Source: an uncultured Clostridia bacterium (GTDB lineage: Bacteria; Bacillota; Clostridia; Christensenellales; Borkfalkiaceae). From it: a stretch of 64,000 nt of DNA. Where the stretch lies: contig CALVXG010000003.1 in the NCBI GenBank assembly GCA_944368925.1, positions 172,472 to 236,471 of the forward strand, read 5' to 3'. Shown one piece after another: positions 2,249-43,190 of this stretch. Each line of letters begins with the position of its first letter. Position 1 is the stretch's first letter. Below the pieces are notes generated by a model. The model saw only the letters and a program-made list of their open reading frames with translations, made no database searches and had not been told where the DNA came from. A program made the position numbers and the translations under genes.

Positions 2249-2272
2249 GACCGCTTCGGCGGTCTTTTTTTT
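2249..2272 (+). terminator. Rho-independent terminator of the AraC gene
   Basis: GACCGC-TTCG-GCGGTC hairpin with a stable UUCG tetraloop (2249-2264) followed by eight T. It overlaps the stop codon of the convergent GH35 gene. Confidence 0.9.
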
Positions 2273-4337
2273 ACGGTTCGAGAAAGACGCGCGCCTGCGT
2301 CTCCGCTTTTACTGAAACCAGCCTGCACGCCCTTCCGTTTTCAAAAACGGGAGGGCGTTCGGTATAGACAAACGCGTCCTGCCGCATTTCATACACGCGC
2401 ACCGTCACGCGTGAAGGATACCCGTACCCGCTTAGGCCGAACACGTACGGCCTGCCCGTGTAATAATCGTCCGCCACCTTTTCCCCGTCCAGCAAAATTT
2501 CCGCACGGTCGCCCTCATAGCCGATCACCAGCCGCGCCCCGTGCACGTCTCCCCGAATCTCCCCGCATTGCAGCGTGTAGTCCGTGTACCCGTCTTTTTG
2601 TTCTTCTTTGCAGATTTGCACGGAAAACGCAGGTACGTTCATCTTTTTTTCGTACAAACCGAACACTCCGTCCTCGCCCGTACAGACAAATCCGCGCGGC
2701 GTAATTTTCGGCTTCGGATAAATTTTCAGCCGCGCGTCGGCCGCGCACAAGAGCGCGATCCCGCCTTCCGTCTCGTACATTTCCCCGTCCGTCATGAACA
2801 GCCGCTCTTTTCCCTCATAACAAAAACGCCAGGCGTCGCGCGCCTCCTGCCTGGTGAGAAGAAGAATCTTTCCGTTAGGGTCGCCCGCCGTTTCGATCTG
2901 CCCCAGTCCTTCGTCCGCCCAGAACACGACGTCCCTGCCGTTGAGCGTGCAAAAGGGCGTGGCGAGCGCATACCGAAAATACGTCCCGCAGATCGTTCTC
3001 TCATACACAAACGCTCCGCATTGCCCGCTTTTGAGCGTAAAATCGGGGAACGTCACCCCTTTTGCGGGCGAAAACGCGTGCAAACGATGTTCCTTCGTCG
3101 GATAATGGCGCACATAGTTGTTGAAAAACACAAACCCGCCTTCCTCTTGCCCGCGCACCGCACAGCGCAGCGATTGCAGGTCGGCAGGATCGGAAGGATT
3201 GCCCGGCATCAGCCGTACGGGCAGCGTGCAGATCTCCCGTCCGAAACCGCGTATGAGACAATTCCACAATTTCAGCTCCCGACCGCTCGGGCGTATCTCG
3301 CCGTATTGCCCGATCGGCGCCTGAAAATCATAGTTGAATTCGGGAAGATCGCAGCAAAACCCCGCCCGCAGATGTTTCTCGTCGCGGTATTCCTGCATCG
3401 TCGTCAGCGCGCCCGTCGGATTGATCCCGCCGTGAAATACGTAATACCCCAGCATCGCCACGCCGCTCCCGATCTTGCAAAGCGCCATCGCCCCGCAGTC
3501 TTCCCCCGTGATCACGGGACGGCGGATCTTCGTCACCTGGATCCCCGATCCCAGTTCCACCGTCGCGTACGGGTACGCCGAATGCGCTATGGTCGCTTCC
3601 ATCTCCTTTCTGCCCGTGTCGCTGCCTATGTTCGCGTCGTTCGGATTGTCCGTAAACAGATATCCGTCCATCGGCGCAAGCTCGCCCGTCTGCGCTTCCC
3701 ACGGCGCTTCGCAATAATTCCCCCATACGGGGATCGCTTCCCCCGTCGCCGCTTGCCCCCAGCCCGTCGCAAAATACAGGGGTACGTCCATCCCTTTTTC
3801 TTTCAGCATGGCGATCAGCGCCGCAATGTGCTCGTCGCCGATCCCCTTCCCCTGCACGCCCCATTGGCTGTATTCGTTCTCCACCTGCACCGCAACGATC
3901 GGCCCGCCGTCTTTGTACGTGAGCCCCGCACATTGCGCGCACAGCTGCGTAAAATACCTGTCTACATCCGCCATGTACCCCGCATCGTTGGAGCGCGCAC
4001 GATATTTCTTGCGCTCCACCCAGTCGGGAAACCCGCCGTTGCGCACTTCCGCGTGCACCCACGGCCCTACCCGCAGACACAAATACATTCCCGCCGCTTT
4101 TACCTCTTGCGCAAAGCGCCGTAAATTCTTGCTCCCGCGAAAATCAAAATGCCCTTCCGTCTCTTCGTGGTGGATCCAACAGCAGTACGAGGAGACAATA
4201 TCCACCCCCAGCGCCTTCATCTTGGCAAGATCTTCCCGCCAGCTTCTGCAATCGCTGCGGCTGTACGGATATTCCCCCATCACGGGAAACCACGGCTCCC
4301 CGTCCTTTTCAAAATACCGCGCATTGTATGTGATCAT
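2271..4337 (-). CDS. GH35-like beta-galactosidase
   Basis: 688 residues, no signal peptide, so probably cytoplasmic. The N-terminal 320 residues carry the GH35 barrel: GEYPYSR, then WREDLAKMKALGVDIVSSYCCW, FAQEVKAAGMYLCLRVGPWVHAEVRNGGFPDW, and VAVQVENEYSQWG, where the Glu of NEY is the expected acid/base. The nucleophile is probably the Glu in TVELGSGIQ, which is less canonical than the usual SEFW context. The C-terminal half is beta-rich, as in GH35 enzymes. The chosen start MITYN follows GAGAGGTG; the longer reading frame overlaps the upstream gene and lacks a better site. It starts 13 bp after the GH78 gene, so both are one operon that would remove rhamnose and galactose from the same glycan. 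The exact sugar specificity is inferred from the family. Confidence 0.85.
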   Translation of the reverse strand: MITYNARYFEKDGEPWFPVMGEYPYSRSDCRSWREDLAKMKALGVDIVSSYCCWIHHEETEGHFDFRGSKNLRRFAQEVKAAGMYLCLRVGPWVHAEVRNGGFPDWVERKKYRARSNDAGYMADVDRYFTQLCAQCAGLTYKDGGPIVAVQVENEYSQWGVQGKGIGDEHIAALIAMLKEKGMDVPLYFATGWGQAATGEAIPVWGNYCEAPWEAQTGELAPMDGYLFTDNPNDANIGSDTGRKEMEATIAHSAYPYATVELGSGIQVTKIRRPVITGEDCGAMALCKIGSGVAMLGYYVFHGGINPTGALTTMQEYRDEKHLRAGFCCDLPEFNYDFQAPIGQYGEIRPSGRELKLWNCLIRGFGREICTLPVRLMPGNPSDPADLQSLRCAVRGQEEGGFVFFNNYVRHYPTKEHRLHAFSPAKGVTFPDFTLKSGQCGAFVYERTICGTYFRYALATPFCTLNGRDVVFWADEGLGQIETAGDPNGKILLLTRQEARDAWRFCYEGKERLFMTDGEMYETEGGIALLCAADARLKIYPKPKITPRGFVCTGEDGVFGLYEKKMNVPAFSVQICKEEQKDGYTDYTLQCGEIRGDVHGARLVIGYEGDRAEILLDGEKVADDYYTGRPYVFGLSGYGYPSRVTVRVYEMRQDAFVYTERPPVFENGRACRLVSVKAETQARVFLEP

Positions 4338-4350
4338 ACGCACCTCTCTT

Positions 4351-6612
4351 TCAGAACGCTTCGCGAACGTCCGCGCGCTCATACCCTTGCGGGATCCGCA
4401 CCTTCTCGACCCCGTCCCTGCGCTCGAACACCAATTCTTGTTTGCCTACGGGTATGCGGATGCGACAATCGATCTTTTCCGCCGCGTCCGTAAACAGGAT
4501 CTTGTTCCCATGCACTCCCGCAAATCCGCTCACGTACCCGACCAGAAGATTCGCCGCATAGGACGCAAATCCGTGATCCAGGCTCCCGCACGGGTTGTCG
4601 TTCTCCCAAAGAGTGCCCGTCCGCTGCGCCATGCCGTAAAAGAAATCTACGCACTCCTGCCGCAGCTGCGCCCGTTTGTCCGACCGCGCCAACATCATCA
4701 GCCGCAGATAGTTCCCGATAAACGCGTTGGATTTGTATACCTGCGGATAGGTCACCTCCACGTCCCGCATCGCACCGAATTTTTCCGTCAGTAATTGAAA
4801 CAGCTTCGGATACGTCTGCGGCGTCGCCACCCCCGAAAAAAATGCGTAGTACTGGCACGTCTCCGTAATGTGCCCGAGAAGTTTCGTCCCGCCTTCACAC
4901 CGCACGCGGTTGTCTTCGAAAAATTCCCCGTCAAACGAATATTCGCGCACGGCCGCGCGTACCTTATCCGCCTTTTCCAGGAGCGCACCGTCCGAATACA
5001 GCCGTCCCGCACTCTCCAACGCCTTCGCATACAACATGTTCGACGGAAAATTGATCCCCTTTATAAACTCTTCGTCGTTCGCCTTGCTCCACTCCACGAA
5101 TACCCAGCTCTCCAAATTCTCCAAAAGCCCGTATTCGTTGCGGTACTTTTCAAAAAACGAAAGAACGCCGTAGACCTTTTCCCTGCTCGCCTGCGCCACC
5201 GAAAAATCACCGCTCCGCAAATACTGGTCGTATAACTCCACCACGTACCACATCGCCCAGTTCGGTATATACTGCGCATTCACAAAATCGGCAGGATAAC
5301 ACATCGGGATCATCTTGTCGGGTATGTACGAAAGATGCGGGCTCATCGCATAATTCTGCAAAAACGCCGCTTCCACCTTGTTTTCCCCCGTGAAAAGCTG
5401 CTCCGCCTTCGCCGAAAAATAAGAATCGCACAACCAGCCCGCCCGCTCCCGCGAAGGACAGTCCGTCAGAAGATCCACCGCATTGTGACGGAACGTCCTG
5501 CACGCCGCGTCCATGATCGCGTTCAGCCGCTCGTCCGCACACTCGAACGCAAACCGCCCCGTGTCCGGATTTTCGTACTTCTGCATATACACCCGCGGCG
5601 TACCCGTCTTCCCCTGCCGCAACAATACCTTCACAAACCGCGCCGTGTACGGCTCAAACGTAAAATGTCTGTATTCCCCCGCCTTCAGACGGTATTCGAT
5701 AATGTTGACGCACGCATTTCGGTACGGCAATACCTCCGCAGGCCCTTCCGGCGTCTTGCGCAGATCCATCTCGTCAAACAATATGTACAGATGCGCGTCT
5801 TCTTCCGCCTTTACCTCTATCCCGATAAAACCCGTTTCGGCCCGCCCGAAATCATACACCGCATACGCACCCGCCTGCAATCCTTCCCGCTTTCCGCTCT
5901 TTTCATAGACAAGATTGCATACGTAATCGGACGGATTGCTCTGCCATTCCCCGATCGGATATATGCGCAGCTCTTCGATCTCCATGCAAATATTGCGGTA
6001 CGGCTCCCCCTCTCCCGCACGAAACGTGCCGTCTTCGATCTTTTCCGCCTCCGCACACGCATAGTCGGGATAATCCGTCACCCGCGGCAACAACTTCCCC
6101 GAAACGACCTCTACGGGCAGCGCCGCATTCTCACCGAACCCGCGCGCATACGTTTCGACGGGCGACTCGGCAAACACATAACTCTCCGTAAACGCCCGCT
6201 GGTAACTGAAACGGCTCACCTTCTGCAACCGCTCCGTATAACGCCGCACATAAAAATCTCTGCCCGTCCAATACCGCGCCTGCCCGTTTTCCGTGATCTC
6301 CGCCTGCAAAAACGCGGGCTGGTCCAATACCCAATAATTCATCGTATTGTACCCCGCCGCCTCGATAAACAATATGTTCTCTTCCTTCAGCCCGCGCAAA
6401 GGGATCCTGTCCACCCGAAAATATCCGTGCGCCGCCCGTGACGGCCCAAACGCAAGAAATTCCCCGTTCAAATACGCCTTGTAACAGTTGCTCGCCGCAA
6501 TCAACAGTTCCGCATTCTCCGCCCTTTTGAAGCGCACACAGAATGCACAGATACTGTTCAACGTCTTTTCTTCCTTTTCCAGCCATACGGGAATCGCTTT
6601 CTGAAATTGCAT
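4351..6612 (-). CDS. GH78-like alpha-L-rhamnosidase
   Basis: 753 residues without signal peptide. N-terminal beta-sandwich features (CYKAYLNGEFLAFGPSRAAHGYFRVD, residues 43-68) and a middle lectin-like region (FTFEPYTARFVKV) lead into the (alpha/alpha)6 barrel. The barrel signature DCPSRERAGW is at about residues 384-393; the acidic residue in this motif supplies catalysis in GH78. The usual wording is DCPQRDERxGW, so this copy is a divergent member. The start is preceded by GGAAGGAGAG. It is the first gene of a two-gene operon with GH35 and has its own promoter at 6702-6765. Expected reaction: release of terminal alpha-L-rhamnose from imported oligosaccharides. Confidence 0.85.
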   Translation of the reverse strand: MQFQKAIPVWLEKEEKTLNSICAFCVRFKRAENAELLIAASNCYKAYLNGEFLAFGPSRAAHGYFRVDRIPLRGLKEENILFIEAAGYNTMNYWVLDQPAFLQAEITENGQARYWTGRDFYVRRYTERLQKVSRFSYQRAFTESYVFAESPVETYARGFGENAALPVEVVSGKLLPRVTDYPDYACAEAEKIEDGTFRAGEGEPYRNICMEIEELRIYPIGEWQSNPSDYVCNLVYEKSGKREGLQAGAYAVYDFGRAETGFIGIEVKAEEDAHLYILFDEMDLRKTPEGPAEVLPYRNACVNIIEYRLKAGEYRHFTFEPYTARFVKVLLRQGKTGTPRVYMQKYENPDTGRFAFECADERLNAIMDAACRTFRHNAVDLLTDCPSRERAGWLCDSYFSAKAEQLFTGENKVEAAFLQNYAMSPHLSYIPDKMIPMCYPADFVNAQYIPNWAMWYVVELYDQYLRSGDFSVAQASREKVYGVLSFFEKYRNEYGLLENLESWVFVEWSKANDEEFIKGINFPSNMLYAKALESAGRLYSDGALLEKADKVRAAVREYSFDGEFFEDNRVRCEGGTKLLGHITETCQYYAFFSGVATPQTYPKLFQLLTEKFGAMRDVEVTYPQVYKSNAFIGNYLRLMMLARSDKRAQLRQECVDFFYGMAQRTGTLWENDNPCGSLDHGFASYAANLLVGYVSGFAGVHGNKILFTDAAEKIDCRIRIPVGKQELVFERRDGVEKVRIPQGYERADVREAF

Positions 6613-7138: not shown

Positions 7139-8398
7139 TCAGCCGAGGACGCTCTTGCGGTATTTGGAGGGCGTGACGCCCACTATTTTTTTAAAGATCT
7201 TGATAAAATAATTTCCGTCGCGGTATCCCACGCAATCGGATACGTCTTCCACAGACCTGCCTTCCATCAGAAGCTCTTTTGCCCTGCTGACGCGCACTTT
7301 GGTCAGATAATCGCTGAACGTTACCCCCATTTCGCGACGAAACAGGTGGCTTAAATAATACCCGCTCACAAACACGTTCTGCGCCAGAATGTCCAGGTTC
7401 AGATCTTCGAAGTAATGCGCGTTGATGTACTGGATCGCTTTGTACAGATGCTCGCTTGTGTTTTTCTTGCCGCGGCTTTCGTAGACAGCGTCGAGAAACC
7501 CGTCCAGAATTTCCACCGTTTCGCGGCAGATATCCGAAAAATCCGCGTTTTCCAAAAGCAGGCGCGAACTTTTCTTGATCACGCCCGTCAGCGTGGAAAG
7601 GGGCGCGCCCGCCTCGACCGCGCTGCGCGACAAAAACGCCGTAAATTCGTAGAGCTTCGCCTTTACGATCTCCAAATCACCGCTCGCATACGAAAAGATT
7701 TCGTTTAAAAAACGGTTGATGATCTGCTTTGCCTGGCTCTTGTCCCCCATCTGCACGGAAGCGATCAGCTCCTTTTCCAGCTCGATCGGGTATTTGTTGT
7801 AATGCGGCTGCGATTCGCGGATCTGCATTTCTTTCGCCGCGCGCAGCCGCTCCATGTTCATTTTCGTGATTTCCAGCCGCTGTTCTATGTACTTGCGCTC
7901 TTCCTGCAGCATGTACCGTATCAGCATGGTCAGCGTTTCCGCTACGCTCGTCATGCTCTTGCAGTCGATCTGGCGTATGTTCGACGGGTCGCACTTTTGC
8001 GCGTCCAACCCCACCTTTTCACAATTTTTACGGAATTCTTCCGCAAAAAAATCGTCCTTGTCCCACAAGATGACCGGCCCCGTCGTGATGAATCCCAACA
8101 ACTCTTCTTCCAAAAGGATCGGCGTGATACACATGATCAGCCCGCACGGCGTCTCGTAAATGTACGCCGAACGGATCTCCGCCGCCTTCTTTCCGCTGAA
8201 TACGATGCTTTCACGGCACGCAAAATGCCCCTTGCCGTATTCACAGATACAGCCGGGGTTGCGTACGCACAACTGTTCCTCTCCTTCCGCATTGTAAAGC
8301 GCCACGTCCAGCCCGCTCGTCAAAGAAAAGTTCCGCAGCAGTTTTTCCAGTTGTTTGAAATTCAGGATCTGTTTGAGTCCCGCATCATTCAGTTTCAT
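7139..8398 (-). CDS. PocR-type sensory domain AraC regulator
   Basis: 419 residues. Residues 1-170 match the PocR domain: Cys-containing CICEYGKGHFACRES and CGLIMCITPILLEEELLGFITTGPVI are the typical segments. A helical linker with coiled-coil character (about 170-310) connects to a C-terminal AraC double HTH (ILAQNVFVSGYYLSHLFRREMG, SVEDVSDCVGYRDGNYFIKIFKK). PocR domains are thought to bind small ligands and were described for propanediol/cobalamin control. Here the gene is last in the corrinoid methyltransferase operon and overlaps DUF2284 by 14 bp, so it most likely autoregulates that operon. A candidate target is the direct repeat pair at 14362-14419. Confidence 0.88.
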   Translation of the reverse strand: MKLNDAGLKQILNFKQLEKLLRNFSLTSGLDVALYNAEGEEQLCVRNPGCICEYGKGHFACRESIVFSGKKAAEIRSAYIYETPCGLIMCITPILLEEELLGFITTGPVILWDKDDFFAEEFRKNCEKVGLDAQKCDPSNIRQIDCKSMTSVAETLTMLIRYMLQEERKYIEQRLEITKMNMERLRAAKEMQIRESQPHYNKYPIELEKELIASVQMGDKSQAKQIINRFLNEIFSYASGDLEIVKAKLYEFTAFLSRSAVEAGAPLSTLTGVIKKSSRLLLENADFSDICRETVEILDGFLDAVYESRGKKNTSEHLYKAIQYINAHYFEDLNLDILAQNVFVSGYYLSHLFRREMGVTFSDYLTKVRVSRAKELLMEGRSVEDVSDCVGYRDGNYFIKIFKKIVGVTPSKYRKSVLG

Positions 8399-8927
8399 TT
8401 CCGCCTAAAAACACCAATGTAAAATACGTTACCGTATTCTCCCCATTAGTATAATTGATTTTTACCTTTTTGGCAAGGGATACGACGTTGATCCCGCACG
8501 CCTCCACCGAACTTTTTGCCTTTTCGGGAAAACGGCAAGGGGCGGGATATGCACACGTTTTGCACACGTTGCAGCCGCCCGCGCCCAGCATCACGCTTCC
8601 CTTCGGCAGGACGGGGCGGATCAGATCTTCCGTCTTCTCGTGCTCTCCGCGCGCACGCTCCATCCCTTCCAGATCGTAACAGTCCTCGATTTCGTGCTTT
8701 GTCGTGAACACGAACGCCTGCGGATACTTCGAATATTTCGCTTTCAGCTCTTCCAGCGTTCCCACGTTGGGCGGGCATTGCCAGCACTTGTTGTAATTCC
8801 CGCAGTAATTGGCGCGGCACGCCGCCACCACTTCCTCCGAAAATTCGATATCCGCGAAATTCAGCTCCGCGTACTGCCAGATCTCCTTTCCCGCCGCCTG
8901 CAGGATCTCTCTCGTAGAATTACGCAT
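8385..8927 (-). CDS. DUF2284 metal-binding protein
   Basis: 180 residues. Two Cys-rich blocks define the family: CRANYCGNYNKCWQCPPNVG (residues 34-53) and CNVCKTCAYPAPCRFPEKA in the C-terminal half. Together they offer enough Cys for one or two metal or Fe-S sites. The molecular role of DUF2284 is not established; genes of the family are often found beside corrinoid methyltransferases and their activators, as here. It overlaps the RACo gene by 8 bp and the regulator by 14 bp, so it is translated as part of the block. A role in electron delivery to the activator is possible but inferred. Confidence 0.85.
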   Translation of the reverse strand: MRNSTREILQAAGKEIWQYAELNFADIEFSEEVVAACRANYCGNYNKCWQCPPNVGTLEELKAKYSKYPQAFVFTTKHEIEDCYDLEGMERARGEHEKTEDLIRPVLPKGSVMLGAGGCNVCKTCAYPAPCRFPEKAKSSVEACGINVVSLAKKVKINYTNGENTVTYFTLVFLGGNETE

Positions 8928-10389
8928 TTTCCTCTCCGAAATTCATGTTTTCGATGTACGCGTCCATAAACTCGGGCGACGCCGAAAGGTCGATATACTC
9001 CGCTTCCCGCGCGATCCTTTCGGCCGCCTTTATGCTCTCTTTGCGGCAAAGGCACTCCCGCGCCCCTGCCAGCGCCGTGTTTCCGACCGCTTCAATCTTA
9101 CCCGCAAGCGCCGCGGGGAACAACCCCACTCCGACCGCGTTTTTCTTGTCGAGATAAAACCCGAGCCCGCCCGCGACATACAGCTTTTTGAGCGCGTCGT
9201 ACGGCACTCCCGCCGTGGAGAGCAATACGCTGATGCCCGCGCAGATCGCGCTCTTGGCAAGCTGAAACGCGCGCACGTCCGCCTGCGATATATATACCTT
9301 GTCGCTGATATAAAATTTGTTCGTCCCGTCCGTAAAGGCGCCCGTCTCGTCCACGATGCCCTTGCGCACCATGAGCGCGATCGCATCCACCAGCCCCGCG
9401 CCGCAGATGCCCGTCGCTTCGCCGCCGCCGATGACGGTGCAGACGATCTTTCCGTCCCGTTCGCGCACGCTGTCGATCGCGCCCGCCACGCCGCCCGTGC
9501 CGCACTCGATGTTTGCCCCTTCAAAACACGGCCCAGCCGCCGTGGACGTCGCATACAGTTTTCCGTGCGCGTGCAGGATCATTTCTCCGTTCGTGCCGAT
9601 ATCCGCCAGAAGGTTTACCCCCTCTTCCACGCGCGAAGTCAGCGCGCCGACCACCACGTCCGACCCGAAATACGCGGACGTCGAGGGCAATACCACCACC
9701 TCTTCCGCCGAAAGCCCCAACTCTTCGCCCGAAAGGTGCACCGTGTCCAGAAATTCCGCACGGAAAGGATATTGCCCGATCCCGTGCACGTCTTTCCCCA
9801 AAAACAGGTGCAGCATGGTCGTGTTCCCGCACACCGCAAGGCGCTTCAGCTTCTTGAACGCAAACTTTTCGGCAAACCGCGCGATCGCCTCGCGCGTCTG
9901 CGCCAGCACGCATTCCTGCATCTGCTTTCCCTTGCCTTCGTCCGCCGCCGCTATGCGGCTCAATACGTCCGCTCCGTACGCGCCCTGCCTGTTCAGCGTC
10001 CCGAATTTGTCCAGCTCCCGCCCCGATTTGAGATCGGTCAGCGAAAACGCGAGCGTCGTCGTGCCGATGTCCAGCGCCACGCCGTACCCTTCCTCGCCGT
10101 CCGTTTCCGTACGGGTCGGCGCCGTATAGGTGAGGCCGCCCCCTTCCGTCTCGAACACTTCCACAAACGCGTCGCCTTCCACGTTCGCAAGGCAGGACAG
10201 CACGTACCCGTCCTTTTCCCCTTCGAACGTTCCCTCGATCACGCGCACGCGGCACTTGCCGCACTTCCCGTTGCCGCCGCAGCGCGCCGCGATCGCATAT
10301 CCTTTCCCCTGCAAAAAGGAAAGAAGATTTTCCCCCTTTCCGCAGTCGTATTCCTTGATCTTCGAACCCGATAAAACTTTTATAAGCAT
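8920..10389 (-). CDS. RACo-like corrinoid activation protein (2Fe-2S plus ASKHA domain)
   Basis: 489 residues with the start MLIKVLSGSK; the longer reading frame reads through the radical SAM gene and is discarded. Residues 30-70 hold a plant-type ferredoxin site with C37, C43, C46 and C66 (ARCGGNGKCGKC and YVLSC). From residue 110 onward comes the DUF4445/ASKHA ATPase-like part (GVALDIGTTTLAFSLTDLKSG, then ADIGTNGEMIL and later Gly-rich motifs). Such proteins reduce inactive Co(II) corrinoid to Co(I) using ATP. It is shorter than classical RACo, so the linker between domains is reduced. It overlaps the radical SAM gene by 10 bp. Its partner is expected to be the corrinoid protein at 13646-14278. 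Confidence 0.9.
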   Translation of the reverse strand: MLIKVLSGSKIKEYDCGKGENLLSFLQGKGYAIAARCGGNGKCGKCRVRVIEGTFEGEKDGYVLSCLANVEGDAFVEVFETEGGGLTYTAPTRTETDGEEGYGVALDIGTTTLAFSLTDLKSGRELDKFGTLNRQGAYGADVLSRIAAADEGKGKQMQECVLAQTREAIARFAEKFAFKKLKRLAVCGNTTMLHLFLGKDVHGIGQYPFRAEFLDTVHLSGEELGLSAEEVVVLPSTSAYFGSDVVVGALTSRVEEGVNLLADIGTNGEMILHAHGKLYATSTAAGPCFEGANIECGTGGVAGAIDSVRERDGKIVCTVIGGGEATGICGAGLVDAIALMVRKGIVDETGAFTDGTNKFYISDKVYISQADVRAFQLAKSAICAGISVLLSTAGVPYDALKKLYVAGGLGFYLDKKNAVGVGLFPAALAGKIEAVGNTALAGARECLCRKESIKAAERIAREAEYIDLSASPEFMDAYIENMNFGEENA

Positions 10390-11330
10390 GGCACTTCCCA
10401 ACCGTTTTCCGCAAGCAGTTTCACGCAGTCTTCGACGCTGTAACCGCGCCCTCGCGACGTTTCCGTCTCCGTGTCCCGCGGGTTCACGCCGTACTCCGCA
10501 TACAACTGGTTCACCCCCGCGAGCATCGCGACGGGATTCACTTCGTGCACGTTCATGGACACGGGCGGGCGCACCGCGAGCATCGCCACCGCCGCGATCT
10601 TCGCAAGCTCGCGCGAACTGATCTCGCCCTCGCGCTCCTTGCGCGTGCCGCACACCCCCACGCGCCGCATCGCCGCCATGTATTTCACATTCAGACGCTG
10701 CGCGCGCAAAATTTCGTCCGCGATCTCCGCGTACGTGTGCTCTTTTCCGATCGGCTCGACGCAATAGTACAGATCGAGCCCTGCCGAAGCGATCGCTTCC
10801 AGCGTCTTTTCCCGCCGCGCCGCGGGAATATCCGTATCCGTCCCCTCGCGAAGACGCACGATATGATACGCGCCCGTCGCGCCGCTTTCGCGCAATTTTT
10901 CGGCATACGTACCGTCAAAATCGCCCGTGTTCACCACAAGGCGCATCGAGGACGGGATCGCCTTGCGCACCGCTTTGACGACGCCGAGAAACGCTTCTTT
11001 GTCATAACATTCCGTGGTCATCAGAAACAGGTCGCTGACCTGCGGCGTGATCGCTTTCTCTACTTCCGCCAGCGTCTCTTCCGCCGTGCGCGTGAACCTG
11101 CCGCCCACCACGAAGTGCGATTTTGCCATCGAACAGAACGAACAGTTCCCCGGGCACGGATTGCTGTCCAGCCCCACCTGGCAGAAAACGTACCCCCTGC
11201 GGAAAGTGCGGCGCGCATACGCTTCCGACTCCGCCAACAGCTCGTAAAATTCCGCCGAATGCGTATCCAGCGAAAGCAAACGGATAATTTCCGCTTTGTC
11301 CGTCCTCTTTTCTTCCGAAAAATTCAGCAT
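10380..11330 (-). CDS. Radical SAM protein, BioB/HydE-like
   Basis: 316 residues. The cluster motif C59-x3-C63-x2-C66 (CPGNCSFC) is preceded by an aromatic and Gly-rich strand, as in the biotin synthase/HydE/ThiH group, and the length fits a single barrel. Later strands keep MRLVVNTGDFD and GAYHIVRLREGTD. The C-terminal part has MLAVRPPVSMNVHEVNPVAMLAGVNQLYAEYGVNPRD, resembling the BioB-type end of the barrel. The reaction is unknown. Being overlapped by the CobW-like GTPase (7 bp) and RACo genes (10 bp) argues for a dedicated role in making or maintaining the methyltransferase system, but I cannot name the substrate. Confidence 0.8.
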   Translation of the reverse strand: MLNFSEEKRTDKAEIIRLLSLDTHSAEFYELLAESEAYARRTFRRGYVFCQVGLDSNPCPGNCSFCSMAKSHFVVGGRFTRTAEETLAEVEKAITPQVSDLFLMTTECYDKEAFLGVVKAVRKAIPSSMRLVVNTGDFDGTYAEKLRESGATGAYHIVRLREGTDTDIPAARREKTLEAIASAGLDLYYCVEPIGKEHTYAEIADEILRAQRLNVKYMAAMRRVGVCGTRKEREGEISSRELAKIAAVAMLAVRPPVSMNVHEVNPVAMLAGVNQLYAEYGVNPRDTETETSRGRGYSVEDCVKLLAENGWEVPCL

Positions 11331-12214
11331 AACGTATATGCAACCCCGCTCTCTTTTAAAACCTGCCCCGCTCTCTCACGCAGCGAAAACTTCCCCGCCG
11401 CCAGAAGAATGAGAAAATTCCCTTCCTTGTCCGTCTCTTCCCAATGCGGTTTTCCGTCCGCAAATTCGAATACCGTATATCCGTTTTCACGGCGAACGAT
11501 CCCCTTTATCCGATGACAGAACGCCGAAAGCTTTTCGCCCAGCGCACAGAGCTCTTCCGCGGAAAGGATCTCCTGAAATTCCGCTTTTGCCTTCTGCACG
11601 GTGATGTCCTCGATCTGCGCGGGCAGGGTGCGCTCTTTGACCGCAAAGTTTTCGTCTTCCAGACGCGCCCCTGTCGTAAAATACAGCGGCGCGTCCGCAT
11701 TCAGCGCGCGCACCGCGCCTTCCAGCCGCACAAGGCTCGCCTTGTCCGCAAGATCCGTCTTGTTCACCAAAATGACGTCCGCCGCCGCGATCTGCATCTT
11801 GACCGCATTTAGGGCATAGAGTACTTTTTCCGCGTTCCGCGCATCCACGATGCATACCGCCCCGCGCATGCGGTACGGCTCTCTCACCCGCCCGTTGATA
11901 AACGCCAGAATCTTCCGCATCTGAAAAGGATTGGAAAGCCCCGACGTTTCCACGATCACGCGCTCGTACCCCTCTTCCGAAAGGGCGATCATCGCTTCCG
12001 CAAACTTTTCGCTGCGGCAGCTGCAGAACACCGACCCGTCGAAAATACTCTCCACTTTCACCGCCGCGTGTTTTAGCAGCGCGCCGTCTACGTCTTCCGC
12101 CCCGAAATCGTTTACCAAAACCGCGTTCCGCCCCGGGTGCCGCGCCAGAAAATCTTTGACAAACGTCGTCTTCCCGCTGCCCAGATACCCCAGCACAAAC
12201 CACACTTCCGTCAT
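11324..12214 (-). CDS. CobW/COG0523-family GTPase
   Basis: 296 residues from MTEVWFVLG; the start A is shared with the stop codon of the UroD-thioredoxin gene (TGATG). Walker A is GYLGSGKTT (9-17), the base-recognition motif NKTD is at 151-154, and VIVETSGLSNP is the switch region. The family's metal motif CxCC appears here as C64-S-C66-R, so the final Cys is missing. The C-terminal 80 residues form the CobW-C-like part. Family members insert or chaperone metals such as Co or Zn using GTP. In this operon, loading Zn into a UroD-fold methyltransferase or handling cobalamin are the natural candidates; both are inference. Confidence 0.85.
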   Translation of the reverse strand: MTEVWFVLGYLGSGKTTFVKDFLARHPGRNAVLVNDFGAEDVDGALLKHAAVKVESIFDGSVFCSCRSEKFAEAMIALSEEGYERVIVETSGLSNPFQMRKILAFINGRVREPYRMRGAVCIVDARNAEKVLYALNAVKMQIAAADVILVNKTDLADKASLVRLEGAVRALNADAPLYFTTGARLEDENFAVKERTLPAQIEDITVQKAKAEFQEILSAEELCALGEKLSAFCHRIKGIVRRENGYTVFEFADGKPHWEETDKEGNFLILLAAGKFSLRERAGQVLKESGVAYTLC

Positions 12215-13572
12215 CAGAGCTTCGCCTCGATTTCCTTGCTCAGTTCGTCCAGCCCCGGTATGATCGACGAGTATTTCAGCTCCCCGTTGATCAGCATGCT
12301 CGGCAGCTGCTTGATCCCCATCTTCATCACGCGCGCGATGTTCTCTTTCACCGTGAATTTGTATTCCACGACGTCGATCTTGTCGCCGTATTTCTCCTTC
12401 GCCGCATTCGCCATGCCCATCATGTACGTGCACGCCGCACAGCTGGACGAATCCAGCGTGAATACCTCGATCAAAGGCTTTTTCAGATGCGCATAATCGG
12501 GGATCACGATGTCGAATTTACTGTAATCCGTCGCTTCGTAATTTTTGACGAGCTCCTTCACCTTTTCGTATTCGAGCACCGCCTGCGCCGCGCCGATCGT
12601 GTTCTCCACGGGCACGTCGTACGGCATGTCACAACCCGGCGATACGATAAAATTGTGGTTGCTGTCCTTCACGCTGTCGATCAGCTCCACCACGTATTTC
12701 ATGTTGTCCTGCTGCGATCCGTGCAGCATCACCGTCGTCAGCGGTATGTTCCCGCCGACCGCCACGTTGTATTTCTCCGTGATCGGACGTATGTCCGCTA
12801 TGCGGATATTCTCGTCCACCGAGATCGAATCGGGATTCGTCTTGCACATACATTCGATGTTCCGCGTCGCGTCCCCGCAGACAAAGAAAGAACTGTATAC
12901 GCCCATCTTGCGTATCTCTTCAAAAATTTTCGTGTACGGCGCAGTCAAAAATTCTTCAAAATGATCGGAACTGATCTGCGATACCAACGGGTCTACCACC
13001 GCAATGACGTCCATCCCCGCTTCCACGTACAACTTTGCTTCCGCGATGATAAAATCCGCACAATACGCGATCAGATCAGAAACATATTCGGGTTCGTCGA
13101 ACATGTCCATGAATATCTCCGTCCCCCTTAGATGCGACGCCAGCGTGAACGGCCCGCATACCAGCCCGTACAGAGCCGTCGTCTCCCCTACGCTCGCTTT
13201 CAGCCGCTCCATCGTCCGCAGGATCATCGGCAGCCTGCCGCTCTCTTTCGTCGGCATCTTGCAGCGGCACGGTATCAGCCGCGCTTCGTCGTACGGATGC
13301 GTCTTCACCGTCGGAGGCGTGTCCTCCGACCACTGCAATTCGCACCCGAGTATCTCCGCTTCCACCTGCAGATCAAAAAGCACCGGCTGCCCGTCCGGAC
13401 GATACAGCTTGTTCACTTCCATCAGCGCATCGTACAGTTTGTCTTCGTCTTTGAGTACCTGGATCGCCGTCGCCCCCGTCAACTTCCCCGCATGGATCCC
13501 CGCAAACGGCACCCACGCAGGCCGCGCCGCCTTCTTGTGCTCCAATATGTCAAACAAAAGTTGCTTCCCCAT
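12214..13572 (-). CDS. UroD/MtaA-like methyltransferase fused to a thioredoxin domain
   Basis: 452 residues. Residues 1-345 are a UroD-fold barrel related to MtaA-type methylcobamide methyltransferases (LYGLVCGPFTLASHLRG, DVIAVVDPLVSQIS, FFVCGDATRNIE, SPGCDMPYDVPVENTIGA). The two Cys that bind Zn in MtaA relatives are visible at C232 and C314, but the His of the HxC motif is replaced by F230. Residues 366-452 are a thioredoxin-like domain with C378-A-A-C381 and a cis-Pro motif QLPSML (P424). The fusion suggests a redox step or metal/thiol handover linked to methyl transfer. It starts after AAGGAAG and follows the corrinoid gene after a 73-bp gap containing a hairpin. Which of the two UroD proteins is the substrate-specific one cannot be told. 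Confidence 0.85.
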   Translation of the reverse strand: MGKQLLFDILEHKKAARPAWVPFAGIHAGKLTGATAIQVLKDEDKLYDALMEVNKLYRPDGQPVLFDLQVEAEILGCELQWSEDTPPTVKTHPYDEARLIPCRCKMPTKESGRLPMILRTMERLKASVGETTALYGLVCGPFTLASHLRGTEIFMDMFDEPEYVSDLIAYCADFIIAEAKLYVEAGMDVIAVVDPLVSQISSDHFEEFLTAPYTKIFEEIRKMGVYSSFFVCGDATRNIECMCKTNPDSISVDENIRIADIRPITEKYNVAVGGNIPLTTVMLHGSQQDNMKYVVELIDSVKDSNHNFIVSPGCDMPYDVPVENTIGAAQAVLEYEKVKELVKNYEATDYSKFDIVIPDYAHLKKPLIEVFTLDSSSCAACTYMMGMANAAKEKYGDKIDVVEYKFTVKENIARVMKMGIKQLPSMLINGELKYSSIIPGLDELSKEIEAKL

Positions 13573-13595
13573 TCTTCCTTGTCCTTTCTTTATTT

Positions 13596-13634
13596 TTTTA
13601 TAAAAGAAAGGCAGCCCAAAAGGCCGCCTTTTTT
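13596..13634. terminator. Hairpin between corrinoid and UroD-thioredoxin genes
   Basis: Arms 13610-13616 and 13622-13628 (7-bp stem including one G-U) are flanked by a T-run on either strand. For leftward transcription the tail is TTTCTTTTAT, so it is a weak terminator that may lower expression of the genes after the corrinoid protein. Confidence 0.55.
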
Positions 13635-13645
13635 ACACCGATCTC

Positions 13646-14278
13646 TCAGTCAAAATACGAACGCGCTTTCTCCGCCGCGCTCGCCGCGTCCGGCGTGTAC
13701 GCATCCGCACCGATCTCGTCCGCAAACGCCTGCGTTACCGGCGCCCCGCCGACCATCACTTTCACTTTGTCGCGCAAGCCCGCCGCCTTCAGCGCTTCGA
13801 TAATGTCTTTCTGATACATCATCGTCGTCGTCAGAAGCGAGGACAAACATACGATGTCCGCATTGTTGTCCTTCACCGCCTGCACCACTTTGTCCGCATC
13901 GCAGTCAACTCCCAGATCGATCACGCGGATCCCCGTGCCCTCGATCATCATCTTCACAAGATTCTTGCCGATATCGTGCAGATCTCCCTTCACCGTGCAG
14001 ATCACCGCCGTGCCCACAGGCTCTACGCCCGATTCCGCCAATGCAGGTTTCAACACCGCCAGCGCCGCATTCATCGCGCGCGCCGCAATCAAAACTTCCG
14101 GTACGAAAATTTCATTGTTCTTGAACTTTTCCCCGACAATCCCCATTCCGACGATCAGTCCCTGCGTCAGAATATCCTTCGGCGACGTCCCCGCTGCCAG
14201 CTCTTCCGTCACCAGCGCCGCCAGATCTTTCGCCTTGCCGCGCTGCAGCAAAGCCGACATTTCTTCAAATTTTGCCAT
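13646..14278 (-). CDS. Corrinoid (B12-binding) protein of a methyltransferase system
   Basis: 210 residues from MAKFEEMSALLQRG, the usual length and beginning for MtaC/MtbC-type proteins; an in-frame ATG six codons upstream (14296) is also possible. Residues 1-85 are the helical cap domain (GLIVGMGIVGEKFKNNEIFVPEVLIAARAM). Residues 88-210 are the Rossmann-like B12 domain with GDLHDIGKNLV, in which H101 is the lower cobalt ligand, followed by GVDCDADKVV, the SLLTTTM loop and VMVGGAPVT. It carries the methyl group between the methyltransferases of the cluster. It has its own TATAAT promoter and two upstream direct repeats. Confidence 0.95.
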   Translation of the reverse strand: MAKFEEMSALLQRGKAKDLAALVTEELAAGTSPKDILTQGLIVGMGIVGEKFKNNEIFVPEVLIAARAMNAALAVLKPALAESGVEPVGTAVICTVKGDLHDIGKNLVKMMIEGTGIRVIDLGVDCDADKVVQAVKDNNADIVCLSSLLTTTMMYQKDIIEALKAAGLRDKVKVMVGGAPVTQAFADEIGADAYTPDAASAAEKARSYFD

Positions 14279-14311
14279 CTCCCGTATTGCCTCCATGCAA
14301 TTCTTTCCACT

Positions 14312-14419
14312 ATTATACACCCTTCTCTTCCAAAAAGATATGGCTTCCCTTGTCGCAAAAGAGTAATATCTTGCTCTGTATTCGGCCTTGCAACTCTTTA
14401 AATAGTAAAATCTTGCTCT
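14312..14419 (-). promoter_or_regulatory. Promoter of the corrinoid gene with two upstream direct repeats
   Basis: The -10 is TATAAT (14312-14317 on the minus strand) and the -35 position (14335-14340, TATCTT) is poor. Upstream are two 16-bp direct repeats, AGTAATATCTTGCTCT (14362-14377) and AGTAAAATCTTGCTCT (14404-14419), reading on the plus strand, one mismatch apart and spaced by 42 bp, or four helical turns. This fits an activator of the AraC type. The 14279-14460 gap holds nothing else that I recognise. Confidence 0.6.
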
Positions 14420-14460
14420 TTCTGTACTTTTTTGCGGCGGCGCACCCGCATCGCCGTTTT

Positions 14461-15576
14461 TTACGGCTTGATCTTCTTGATCTCGTCGATATAGTACTGC
14501 ACGAGTTCCCATTTCGTCCCCGGCATCAGACGATGGTCGGGGCAAGGAATGTATCCGCCCAGATCGACCAGCCTGCGGATACGCTCGATCTCCGCGTCCA
14601 CCGCCGCCTTGTCCTTGCGAAGCGCCGTTTTGTCCACCGCGCCCACGCCGCGCATCTCTTTCCCGAATTTCTTGCGCGCAGGCTCAAACTGATCGCCCCA
14701 CGTCCCGATCTCGATGGGGAACATCGTGTTCACCCCGTTCTCGAACCAAATCGGCAGAAGTTTTTCCGTCACGCCGTCGCAGTCCAGCGAAATAATGTCC
14801 AATCCGTATTTTTTGCAGAGTTCGTTACGCTTTTTGTAATGCTTCGCACACAGTTCTTCAAACATTACAGGCGAAATCAGCGGCCCGTTCTTGAAACAAA
14901 TATCTTCCCAATAATGCGCAAAATCAAATTTCGCCCCCGTCTTGAGCACCGCTTCCGCTACCTGATACTGCATCTCGGCGTACGTGTCGATGATCTCCGC
15001 AAACAGATCGTAATCGTCACAGATCATGTACGACATCCCGATCACCGAAAGCATGTTCCGTATATCCCCGAGCACGCTCCCCAAATGCAGGCCGATCGGC
15101 GTGTCCCCGCGGTCTTTCTCAAACTGCTCTTTGAAATATTCCACGGGCACCCTGTCCGCCGAAAACTGCATCTTCGGCTTGTATAACTCCTCGAACGCCG
15201 CCCTGTCTTTCAACAGATAATCGTCCTCCGCAGGAATCGAACCCGCTCCGTCGCGCACCCGCTCGATCAGACCCACGCTGTTTTGCACCCGCTTGAATCC
15301 GTCCGGCAGCACTTCCAAAACTTTCGTCTCAAACCCGGGATTCAACCCGAAATTCCCGCACCGCACCCTGTACCAGTTAAAATCCCAGCCCAGAATCTTG
15401 TTCAGCTCCGCATCCGCGTCGTTTCCGTCCGCCCACGCCGCCGCAAGCTCCTTGCTGATATGTCCCTGTTGCGCCCATTCGTCCAAAAGCTCGTTCCAAT
15501 ACCCGAAATGCACCGCAGGCAGCCTGTCTACCCCCTTATAATGCAGCAAATTGTACGCCCTTTCACGGTTCGTCAT
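14461..15576 (-). CDS. UroD-fold corrinoid-dependent methyltransferase (putative)
   Basis: 371 residues, full length for the UroD/MtaA superfamily. The start follows GGGAGAGGAG with 8 bases to the ATG. Conserved pieces include GKPIDRLP-like GVDRLPAVHFGYW near the N-terminus, YWEDICFKNGPLISPVMFEE (222-241), ISLDCDGVTEKLLPIWFENGVNTMFPIE (262-289) and IPCPDHRLMPGTKW (343-356). It lacks the HxC zinc motif of MtaA and carries a D-x-D-G sequence at that place, as does the orphan paralogue at 17782. It is not likely to be heme-pathway UroD, since the corrinoid gene is next to it and no hem genes are near. Probable role: methyl transfer from an unidentified substrate to the corrinoid protein. Confidence 0.82.
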   Translation of the reverse strand: MTNRERAYNLLHYKGVDRLPAVHFGYWNELLDEWAQQGHISKELAAAWADGNDADAELNKILGWDFNWYRVRCGNFGLNPGFETKVLEVLPDGFKRVQNSVGLIERVRDGAGSIPAEDDYLLKDRAAFEELYKPKMQFSADRVPVEYFKEQFEKDRGDTPIGLHLGSVLGDIRNMLSVIGMSYMICDDYDLFAEIIDTYAEMQYQVAEAVLKTGAKFDFAHYWEDICFKNGPLISPVMFEELCAKHYKKRNELCKKYGLDIISLDCDGVTEKLLPIWFENGVNTMFPIEIGTWGDQFEPARKKFGKEMRGVGAVDKTALRKDKAAVDAEIERIRRLVDLGGYIPCPDHRLMPGTKWELVQYYIDEIKKIKP

Positions 15577-15734: not shown

Positions 15735-16580
15735 ATGTTTTTGAAATTTCACAACGACGTGCGCGAACAGCACAACATTTTTGCCGCCACGCAGAACGAT
15801 CTGTACCCGCTTTTGAGCCTCGCGCCCGTAAGCGCGGGCGAATTCCGCTGCGGAGAAAACTATCTCACGGAACGCGAAGGGTATAACTGCTACCTTCTCC
15901 TCTATACCTTCGGCGGGCGCGGAAAACTTATCTATCACGGCAAAGCGTTCGCCGTTTGCCCCGATACCGTCATGCTCATCGACTGCAACGAATGGCAGCA
16001 TTACCGCACCGACGGCTCCCTTTGGCATTTCCGCTTCGTACACTTTGGCGGAACCGCCGCCGCATACCTCTACGAAAACATCACCGCGGGCGAAAATTTC
16101 GTCCTGCCCGTGCGCAATTCCGTCTCCTTCCGCGCTGCCCTCAACGAACTGTTTTCCTGCCCGCGCATCGTCCTGCCGCAGGACTTTTTGAAATGCGCGG
16201 GCGCGCTCGGCGAAGCCTTCGCCCTCCTGCTCGATGAACGAAACCTCGCCGAACCCCACGTTCTCCCCCGCGCACGCATTTTGCGAGCCAAAGAGCTCAT
16301 CGAAAAAAATTACGCGAAACCCCTCTCCCTCGACAGCCTCGCCGCCGAATGCTTCCTCTCCAAATTCTATTTCGTGCGGCTGTTCCGCCTGCATACGGGC
16401 TTTTCTCCCGTCGCTTACCTCCGCTCCTTCCGCATCACCCAGGCACAGACTTTTCTCAAATCTACCGACCTAAGCGTCGAAGAGATCGCCGAACGCGTCG
16501 GCTATGAGGACGTCTCCGCCTTTATCCGCGCCTTCCGCCAGGTCACGGGCATCACCCCCAACCAGTTCCGAAAACTTTGA
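15735..16580 (+). CDS. AraC family transcriptional regulator
   Basis: 281 residues. The N-terminal part looks like a cupin ligand-binding domain (GYNCYLLLYTFGGRGKLIYHGKAFAV, then MLIDCNEWQHYRT and WHFRFVHFGG). The C-terminal 100 residues are the AraC HTH pair (LDSLAAECFLSKFYFVRLFRLHTG and SVEEIAERVGYEDVSAFIRAFRQVTGITPNQF). The start has GGAG six bases upstream. It diverges from the UroD-fold methyltransferase at 14461-15576, with both promoters in a 158-bp gap, so it could control that gene. Its N-terminal family suggests a sugar ligand, which would tie methyl metabolism to glycan use; this is inference. Confidence 0.88.
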   Translation: MFLKFHNDVREQHNIFAATQNDLYPLLSLAPVSAGEFRCGENYLTEREGYNCYLLLYTFGGRGKLIYHGKAFAVCPDTVMLIDCNEWQHYRTDGSLWHFRFVHFGGTAAAYLYENITAGENFVLPVRNSVSFRAALNELFSCPRIVLPQDFLKCAGALGEAFALLLDERNLAEPHVLPRARILRAKELIEKNYAKPLSLDSLAAECFLSKFYFVRLFRLHTGFSPVAYLRSFRITQAQTFLKSTDLSVEEIAERVGYEDVSAFIRAFRQVTGITPNQFRKL

Positions 16581-17781: not shown

Positions 17782-18774
17782 ATGCAAATGTACGAACGTT
17801 TCAAAAATTTTATGGAAGGAAAACCGATCGACCGTCTGCCCGCTATCGAATGGGCGCCGTTCTGGCCTTTGACCGTCGACCGTTGGAGAAAAGAAGGCCT
17901 GCCCGCTGAATGCGTTTCGGTCTATGACATTCAGAATTATTTCGGGCTCGACAAATGCTGCCAGAGCTACTTCACCTGGCAGACCGCCCAGACGCCCCAG
18001 CCGAAGGAATACGGGCACGGGATCATACGCGACGAGGCAGATTACGAAAAGATCTTGCCCACCCTGTATCCCGAACCTTCTCTGCCGAAAGAACACATCG
18101 AATGGCTGAAAAAGACGCGCGCACAGGGTGATACCCTGCACTTTTTCACCGTGGAAGGCTTTTTCTGGCAGCCGCGCGTTTTGCTGGGAATCGAACCGCA
18201 CCTCTACAGTTTTTACGACCAGCCCGAATTGTACCACCGCATCTGTGAAGACAACGCCGCATGGCTCAAACGCGTTTTCGAATACGCCATGAACGTCTTC
18301 CCCTTTGATTTTATGAGCTATGCCGAGGATATGAGCTACAACAACGGGCCCATGCTCTCCAAGGAGACGTTCGACGAGTTCCTGCTCCCCTATTACAAAA
18401 AGACGATGCCCCTCTTAAAGGGATATACCTATTGCTTCGTGGACAGCGACGGCGACATCACCAAAGCCGTGGACTGGTACGCCGAAGCGGGCGCGGACGG
18501 CATGTTCCCCCTCGAACGCCAGGCGGGCGTGGACGTTTCCCTATACATCCGCAAACAGCCGCAGATGGCGTTTATCGGACACTTCGATAAAATGTGCATG
18601 AAGTTCGGCGAAGAGGCCATGACGCGCGAATTCGAAAGGCTTCTCCCCTCCGCCCGCGCGGGGAAAGTGCTCTTTTCCTGCGACCACCAGACCCCGCCCG
18701 ACGTTTCCATCGACAATTACAGGACGTACGTACGCCTTCTCAAAAAATACGCCGTTCTTGCCGCGCAAAAATAA
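17782..18774 (+). CDS. Orphan UroD-fold methyltransferase
   Basis: 330 residues. It belongs to the same subgroup as the 371-residue protein at 14461: KPIDRLPAIEWAPFW near the start, YAEDMSYNNGPMLSKETFDEF, YCFVDSDGDITKAVDWYAEAGADGMFPLE and CDHQTPPDVSIDNYRTYVRLL at the end. As in that protein, the D-x-D-G sequence stands where MtaA has its zinc HxC. No corrinoid protein is adjacent, so it may share the one at 13646-14278 or act alone. The divergent AraC gene and the operator-like repeat suggest inducible control. The substrate is unknown. Two long hairpins end the transcript. Confidence 0.78.
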   Translation: MQMYERFKNFMEGKPIDRLPAIEWAPFWPLTVDRWRKEGLPAECVSVYDIQNYFGLDKCCQSYFTWQTAQTPQPKEYGHGIIRDEADYEKILPTLYPEPSLPKEHIEWLKKTRAQGDTLHFFTVEGFFWQPRVLLGIEPHLYSFYDQPELYHRICEDNAAWLKRVFEYAMNVFPFDFMSYAEDMSYNNGPMLSKETFDEFLLPYYKKTMPLLKGYTYCFVDSDGDITKAVDWYAEAGADGMFPLERQAGVDVSLYIRKQPQMAFIGHFDKMCMKFGEEAMTREFERLLPSARAGKVLFSCDHQTPPDVSIDNYRTYVRLLKKYAVLAAQK

Positions 18775-43086: not shown

Positions 43087-43190
43087 CCTGCCACCGCTTT
43101 TTTTCGTTTTTTCCGCACGCTTTTCCCTTATCTCCCGCCGCGGGCCGCACGCATTGCGCCCCTCCTGCAATCGCTGCACGGATTTTTCTT

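Follow-up and report, generated by a model that had tools for sequence, protein, structure and literature searches.

A cluster of eight genes in a 64,000-nucleotide (nt) stretch of an uncultured Clostridia bacterium (Borkfalkiaceae; assembly GCA_944368925.1, contig CALVXG010000003.1, positions 172,472 to 236,471, hereafter called the window) is analysed here. On balance, we lean towards reading this locus as the hub at the centre of a corrinoid-dependent system for anaerobic demethylation, with exchangeable ‘spokes’ (methyltransferases of the UroD superfamily), probably acting on O-methylated sugars and with a UroD–thioredoxin fusion (UroD-Trx) as the second methyltransferase (MT2). The system is real, conserved and modular, as seen in its gene content, its conservation and co-occurrence among relatives, the hydrolase genes in its neighbourhood, the exchange of MT2 between sister species and the residues of the active sites. 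A preliminary description, made from the sequence alone, had proposed a corrinoid methyl-transfer cluster that includes a GTPase and UroD-Trx; both the gene content and the linkage of the CobW-type GTPase with UroD-Trx support this proposal. Sugar methyl ethers are the best-supported, if unproven, substrate.

In the proposed mechanism, for which we infer the substrate (sugar methyl ethers), the methyl acceptor and the roles of the GTPase, the thioredoxin domain, DUF2284 and the radical SAM protein, several substrate-specific UroD methyltransferases would pass methyl groups to one corrinoid protein. Two of these spokes lie in the window and six beside glycoside-hydrolase (GH) genes elsewhere, and their substrates would probably be O-methylated sugars set free by the neighbouring hydrolases. 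A RACo-type activator would hold the corrinoid protein as Co(I), with DUF2284 perhaps donating electrons, and UroD-Trx would then pass the methyl group on from the corrinoid protein, with either a thiol or tetrahydrofolate as acceptor. The GTPase would probably load or maintain the altered Cys-Cys metal site of UroD-Trx, the thioredoxin CAAC motif would keep this site reduced or carry the acceptor sulfur, and a PocR-AraC protein would regulate the hub. An MtaA-like UroD protein can itself be the second methyltransferase, so that the pathway would still have one in the absence of a pterin enzyme. The genome encodes formate-tetrahydrofolate ligase as well as MetF, the latter ~1.6 kb from MetH, so that methyl-tetrahydrofolate could be used. 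Provided that UroD-Trx is MT2, we judge a thiol to have about an even chance of being the acceptor, and tetrahydrofolate to be a possible acceptor of lower probability.

Glycans of plants, algae and microbes contain O-methylated sugars, for instance 4-O-methylglucuronate in xylan and 2-O-methyl sugars in rhamnogalacturonan II (RG-II). A broader proposal, advanced tentatively and with somewhat less than even confidence, is that gut anaerobes demethylate sugar ethers without O2: UroD O-demethylases beside glycoside hydrolases would load one corrinoid protein, which would be drained by a new class of MT2 (UroD-Trx, with a Cys-Cys or Cys-selenocysteine site devoid of His and metallated by a dedicated CobW subfamily), and this class would form an unlisted selenoprotein family in selenium-using relatives. 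If true, the modular hub would tie gut glycan breakdown to one-carbon metabolism and would give anaerobes an undescribed route to methylated sugars of plants or microbes. It would also suggest a first function for the UroD-family genes that stand beside glycoside-hydrolase genes in these genomes. The UroD-Trx/CobW pair, in which a metal ligand is probably selenocysteine in some genomes, would be a separate point for metalloenzyme and selenium biology.

Gene content and conservation of the hub

Model searches (Pfam and NCBIfam) assign the eight genes, on the minus strand between positions 7139 and 15576 of the window, to the families named in the preliminary description, and the open reading frames (ORFs) confirm their common direction. 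From high to low coordinates, they encode a first methyltransferase of the UroD superfamily (MT1), taken as a substrate spoke (14461..15576, 371 aa; URO-D 36.4 bits); the corrinoid protein, or methyl carrier (13646..14278; B12-binding_2 72 bits, B12-binding 94 bits); UroD-Trx, the proposed MT2 (12214..13572; URO-D 173.6 bits, Thioredoxin_3 23.5 bits, slightly below the cut-off of 24.8); a CobW/COG0523-type GTPase, the proposed MT2 metallochaperone (11324..12214; cobW 114.8 bits, above the cut-off); a BioB/HydE-like radical SAM protein (rSAM; 10380..11330); a RACo-type reductive activator of the corrinoid protein (8920..10389; RACo_C_ter 224.5, Raco_middle 138.4 and Fer2 36 bits); a DUF2284 cysteine-rich protein, possibly an electron carrier (8385..8927; 151 bits); and a PocR sensor–AraC regulator (7139..8398; PocR 78.6 bits, HTH_18 77 bits). 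Despite a Pfam score below the cut-off (Radical_SAM 26.8 bits versus 29.5), rSAM carries the CxxxCxxC motif, as CPGNCSFC. The junctions overlap less often than the six overlapping or touching cases counted at first: just five of the seven do so, by 1–14 nt (UroD-Trx/CobW 1 nt, CobW/rSAM 7 nt, rSAM/RACo 10 nt, RACo/DUF2284 8 nt and DUF2284/PocR 14 nt). About 180 bp separate MT1 from the corrinoid gene, which starts at 14278 (conserved MAKFEEM), and the 73-bp gap between the corrinoid and UroD-Trx genes contains a hairpin followed by a T-run (13607..13631, minus strand; 11 pairs, 6 GC), a possible attenuator or terminator. With 12 terminator-like sites found and 11.2 expected from shuffling, their number is not above that of the shuffles, so that this hairpin by itself proves little.

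The hub was inventoried in the whole assembly (2.70 Mb, 93.7% complete, with the window on contig C3). The nine URO-D matches are UroD-Trx, two others in the window and six on contigs C10 (61.8-74.7 kb) and C11 (26.7 and 62.7 kb). The B12-binding_2 domain is matched twice, in MetH and in the corrinoid protein of the cluster, the latter being the sole stand-alone one found. With one stand-alone corrinoid protein for eight UroD proteins other than UroD-Trx, eight putative MT1s would share one methylation target. Pterin_bind has a single match, in a 798-aa frame also bearing B12-binding_2, namely MetH; the cluster thus lacks a pterin-binding methyltransferase, as claimed, and none was found as a stand-alone protein in the assembly.

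Among 201 relatives, counting genomes with at least two URO-D matches, 39 have both these and a stand-alone corrinoid protein, 5 the corrinoid protein only, 1 URO-D only and 156 neither (p = 7e-35, with genomes that are not independent and shared ancestry uncorrected). Counted with at least one URO-D match, the corresponding numbers are 41, 3, 10 and 147 (p = 1.4e-29, again uncorrected for shared ancestry). Within the genus (40 genomes), 14 have URO-D and corrinoid proteins, all with at least two URO-D matches, and 26 have neither. Stand-alone corrinoid proteins (E ≤ 8e-44) were told apart from MetH-size frames by search score, and the UroD copy numbers per genome are lower bounds, at most nine candidates being scored in each. 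Genome G140 (locus L095) has 57 first-look URO-D candidates (9 scored), three stand-alone corrinoid proteins, a UroD-Trx 43% identical to that of the window and a PocR regulator, and is a rich place for studying many spokes.

The order corrinoid protein, UroD-Trx, CobW, rSAM, RACo, DUF2284, PocR is kept in L009 (counted as one locus with contig 82 of G020, whose length and matches are identical), L010 (without RACo), L011, G010 (where rSAM, DUF2284 and the corrinoid gene were located by tblastn, antisense ORFs overlying them) and G005, where the core is divided between two contigs. The G002 locus has the corrinoid protein, UroD-Trx and only the first 126 residues of CobW, and rSAM, RACo, DUF2284 and PocR are without match beside its UroD-Trx. 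The CobW frame there (L092:7067-8575) continues into what looks by eye like a leucine-rich/Ig-like surface-protein tail, by decay or at an assembly joint.

MT1 is more changeable. Its orthologue in G005 is 88% identical and lies 1.8 kb upstream of the corrinoid gene, and there is no match at the L009, L010, L011 and G010 loci, of which L009 and L011 extend past the upstream side of the corrinoid gene by only 1.5 and 0.9 kb; MT1 is thus rejected as a fixed member of the cluster. MT1, the corrinoid protein and RACo had been described as a core known from O-demethylase and methylamine systems: they are encoded together here, but MT1 is not constant among close relatives. L010 has instead a 341-aa UroD-like protein, preceded by a GH43/CBM35-type ORF, with a weak match to the methylcobalamin:coenzyme M methyltransferase model (E 0.0017) and none in Pfam. 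Immediately after the PocR gene of the same locus (L010:13183-14868) stands a gene for a flavoprotein like CoA-disulfide reductase with a rhodanese-like tail, read by eye. A small membrane protein adjoins the corrinoid gene in G002, G005 and G035 (L092:10643-11353, L021:6039-6596 and L099:5038-5592). It resembles an ECF S-component by eye and perhaps serves corrinoid uptake, and since no Pfam or NCBIfam model matches it, cobalamin uptake is not claimed.

The second methyltransferase and its partners

The best PDB match of UroD-Trx is 4ay7 (E 1e-17), of the MtaA/MtbA family. Its score with the MtaA/CmuA model TIGR01463 (144.4 bits, cut-off 235.4) and that of its thioredoxin domain with the SaoT model of the Sao operon (17.2 bits, cut-off 65) are both below the cut-offs. 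Aligned to the H-C-C zinc site of MtaA, its site reads F-C-C, the His being replaced by Phe; C232, C314 and the thioredoxin CAAC cysteines C378 and C381 are invariant (19 homologues). Loci with UroD-Trx are called type A. Type B, sampled in six other genus members (L097-L102), has instead a 336-aa MtaA-like MT2 that keeps the H-C-C motif and has no thioredoxin domain. Beside the type-B MT2, RACo and PocR relatives are found in four of the six loci and the corrinoid gene in three, DUF2284 relatives (37-38% identical) lie near two, and there is no thioredoxin, CobW or rSAM match (n = 6). The PocR-AraC protein is 77-83% identical to that of the window at type-A loci and 59-61% identical where it adjoins the type-B MT2 gene (4/6). 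The corrinoid protein itself hardly changes: its identity to that of the window is 94-98% in type-A relatives and 88-97% in other genus members (88-93% in the six type-B genomes, up to 97% in further ones).

Kountz and Balskus (PMC10418091) state that H-C-C marks the S-methyltransferases of the MtaA/UroD superfamily and that O-methyltransferases replace one or both Cys. Among 27 spoke UroDs, HxC is kept in 20 and a Cys in the last alignment column is found in none (0/27). MT1 has L, C and H in these columns instead of H, C and C, with a PCPDH motif at the last site, and no meaningful PDB sequence match at E ≤ 1 (a single chance-level match, E 0.26). Both MT2 types form one clade that excludes the spokes (support 0.91). 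These contrasting sites, H-C-C or F-C-C in the MT2 types, together with the MT2 clade, lead us to place UroD-Trx after rather than before the corrinoid protein. The table of 27 spokes includes C10_18155, with a gap at the last column, and excludes L112, L130 (wrong-strand ORF), C10_17133 and L010up (no Pfam match); L122 (wrong strand) was never in it.

Relatives of UroD-Trx (E ≤ 1e-60) are found in 20 of 398 genomes of the phylum, including its own; in some weaker relatives, the thioredoxin part is a separate gene or without match. Outside the genus, CobW adjoins UroD-Trx in 10 of 22 loci and lies ~3 kb away in two others, which upholds the earlier assignment of the GTPase to the corrinoid cluster. 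The metal motif of CobW/COG0523 GTPases is CxCC. The window CobW has the GxxGxGKT motif of the G-domain and lacks CxCC, with GSVFCSC in its place; this GS[IV]xCxC motif is found in all six genus copies and, elsewhere, in 8 of the 10 that adjoin UroD-Trx, the exceptions being L187 and L195. At L184 and L187, UroD-Trx is accompanied by a corrinoid protein and an MT1 of the MtmB family (ORF without internal stop), a possible methylamine-type system free of pyrrolysine that would use UroD-Trx as second methyltransferase; MtaB identity for this MT1 is wrong, the Pfam match being MtmB.

In seven other genomes, TGA stands in place of the C314 codon and the UroD part of the frame is otherwise open (L178, L193, L194, L197, L166, L168 and L172, all Bacillota; in G283, one of two copies). 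A match to the tRNA for selenocysteine (tRNA-Sec) is found at 72-81 bits in all seven and at 64.8-72.5 bits in 7 of 15 other genomes searched. The chance of seven out of seven is 0.02 at a dividing line of 64 bits, which is our own choice, and 0.07 at the Rfam gathering score of 47 (7/7 versus 9/15), a score also exceeded in 5 of 14 control genomes. The genome of the window itself reaches 42.2 bits at best, under the gathering score. Folds of the 60 nt after the TGA codons have no control and are not used as evidence for a selenocysteine insertion element (SECIS). To judge from these codons and tRNAs, TGA at the C314 position likely encodes selenocysteine, and the TGA-bearing UroD methyltransferases would be a probable, unlisted selenoprotein family; the main text of a review from 2026 on prokaryotic selenoproteins (PMC13188914) does not mention UroD.

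The rSAM gene lies inside the cluster in six of the seven genus UroD-Trx loci, the seventh (G002) being truncated, and CxxxCxxC is invariant (5 genus sequences). The protein scores 21.9 bits with the curated BioB model (cut-off 225), and the HydE and PylB models are absent among the matches listed. Of 398 phylum genomes, 22 have relatives of this protein; in the 397 without its own, they co-occur with UroD-Trx in 5 versus 1.0 expected (p = 0.002, uncorrected for relatedness). A corrinoid or UroD-Trx match is found in none of 20 stretches around distant rSAM homologues, and an rSAM match in none of 22 stretches around UroD-Trx outside the genus. The link with corrinoid genes that had been suggested thus stands within the genus (6/7 loci) but not at distant loci (0/20), and rSAM as a general partner of corrinoid clusters is rejected. 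It perhaps acts in modification of the methyl acceptor or of MT2. G476 (L220 and L194; contig C2, 36-76 kb) has UroD-Trx, corrinoid proteins, CobW copies, a further UroD and an rSAM relative within 40 kb; there, rSAM is ~23 kb from UroD-Trx on the same contig and, at L220, a UroD is ~1.3 kb and CobW ~7 kb away. Another distant rSAM locus (L226) has a weak CobW match, and some distant homologues lie near glycosyltransferases or ABC transporters, as we read the ORFs.

Spokes and their sugar-gene neighbourhood

Each of the six UroD genes outside the window adjoins a glycoside-hydrolase gene. The partners are two GH95-type genes, a GH31 gene flanked by UroD on both sides (as read over two stretches), a melibiase gene and an MGH1/GH63-like gene. 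In relatives, the neighbours of 20 UroD loci were collected (84 proteins of at least 230 aa, at most 4 kb away, two of them URO-D themselves); the families matched more than once include GH38, rhamnosidase, PfkB, ROK, MocA and LacI-type proteins, sugar-ABC permease, 3-keto-disaccharide hydrolase, DUF4838 and AXE1, as well as AraC and GntR regulators and integrase domains. Neighbours in relatives also include GH2 and GH78; the MocA match is a dehydrogenase, the PfkB matches are kinases, and DUF4838 goes with an AXE1-like esterase. In a control set (19 stretches, 95 proteins), the commonest 25 families are chiefly housekeeping, with one rhamnosidase and one GH77; as the families compared are the 25 commonest of 89 and of 146 in the two sets, the comparison is a contrast between sets and not a rate.

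Spokes can be common to both hub types. A DUF4838–UroD–esterase block is shared by G010, which has a type A hub, and G018, which has a type B hub, with identities of 87.5% for UroD, 72% for DUF4838 and 71% for the esterase, and GH38–UroD pairs are found in G020 (type A) and G004 (type B), the UroDs being 60% and the GH38 proteins 42% identical. The second spoke of the window (17782..18774, plus strand; URO-D 42.7 bits) has an 86% identical orthologue in G005, near the MT1 orthologue of that genome.

Rival readings, known systems and the flanks of the cluster

Several points weigh against the hub proposed here. UroD-Trx is without the His ligand of the zinc site, so that its metal may not be zinc; CobW is absent from the stretch in 10 of the 22 UroD-Trx loci outside the genus; the L010 core has no RACo; and rSAM is without a place yet in the mechanism. 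MT2 is counted among the URO-D matches and thereby partly drives the co-occurrence, which is why this was also counted with at least two URO-D matches. Regarding the spokes, a Cys lies within three residues of the last column in 7 of 27, including both spokes of the window, and two of these seven also carry HxC, so the last-site argument depends on the alignment. The controls for the sugar neighbourhood are contig starts from genomes of relatives, not from the genome of the window, compared by the 25 commonest families per set. The lineage is also rich in glycoside hydrolases, among them the GH35 and GH78-type genes of the window, so that the hydrolase neighbourhood by itself is suggestive.

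UroD-superfamily MT1, a separate corrinoid protein and a RACo-type activator are shared with OdmABCD, MtvABC, VdmABCD and the chloromethane system CdmBCA. One rival is an ordinary O-demethylase, in which the UroDs of the window would act on phenyl methyl ethers like OdmB, VdmB and MtvB and the methyl group would go to tetrahydrofolate. MtvB, OdmB and VdmB are UroD O-demethylases (PMC13222342), the O-demethylase set consists of a UroD MT1, a corrinoid protein and RACo, as here, and MetF, MetH and formate-tetrahydrofolate ligase are encoded in the genome. However, no pterin-binding MT2 was found in the assembly except MetH, the six other UroD genes adjoin glycoside hydrolases and MT1 has no meaningful PDB match at E ≤ 1, which makes this reading unlikely. 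The present locus also differs from the Odm, Mtv, Vdm and Cdm systems in that MT2 is UroD-Trx and not a pterin-binding enzyme and in the addition of CobW, radical SAM and PocR-AraC; moreover, a single corrinoid protein seems to serve several MT1s, which are scattered and lie beside sugar genes.

A second family of clusters, the type 1 mlp clusters, likewise combines an MtaA-like UroD, a corrinoid protein and an activator with no H4folate methyltransferase in the cluster, and such clusters have been tied to selenium and sulfur (PMC10418091, main text, where CobW, radical SAM and GTPase are not mentioned and thioredoxin appears in a reference only). An mlp-type reading tied to these elements fits the MtaA-like UroD-Trx, its thioredoxin domain and Cys-Cys site and the probable selenocysteine in relatives; yet the defining feature of type 1 clusters is the presence of both Mlp2 and Mlp3, whose His-Cys-Cys site hardly varies (same source), whereas here a single MtaA-like protein has Phe-Cys-Cys and a thioredoxin domain. 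Furthermore, the tRNA-Sec match of the genome is below threshold (the selenium trait is usual, not universal, in type 1 clusters), the spokes have no complete H-C-C (2/27 come close) and those outside the window adjoin glycoside hydrolases. Altogether, we regard this reading as fairly unlikely. Very doubtful, in our view, is a third reading, in which CobW and rSAM would make a new cofactor of UroD-Trx or put it in place and so turn the protein into something other than a plain methyltransferase, such as a methyl reductase or methylthiolase. Such a role would suit the overlapping UroD-Trx, CobW and rSAM genes, the altered metal site with four invariant Cys and the uncorrected co-occurrence of rSAM with UroD-Trx in the phylum, but it is at odds with the lack of an rSAM match in all 22 non-genus stretches, the other contexts of rSAM homologues (20 loci) and the sister species that run a near-identical corrinoid protein with a plain MtaA-like enzyme.

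The known enzymes closest to UroD-Trx include MtaA and MtbA, methylcobamide:coenzyme M methyltransferases of a family that takes methyl groups from a corrinoid protein; UroD-Trx differs from them by Phe for the His ligand, its C-terminal thioredoxin domain and its family scores below cut-off. The CobW protein shares the G-domain and GxxGxGKT with the metallochaperones YjiA and ZigA, and differs in having GS[IV]xCxC for CxCC and UroD-Trx as a frequent neighbour. In titles and abstracts, with subscription journals largely outside coverage, no description of corrinoid-dependent sugar demethylation was found, nor a corrinoid cluster with CobW, radical SAM or thioredoxin.

The window is for the most part a region of glycan use. 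A GH35 gene and three genes with GH78-type rhamnosidase domains (window 2271-6612, 20247-22793 and 41239-43179) stand on the two sides of the cluster, accompanied by ABC transporters and AraC regulators. Divergent from MT1, an AraC regulator (15735..16580, plus strand; AraC_binding and HTH domains) has a 66% identical orthologue that also adjoins MT1 in G005.

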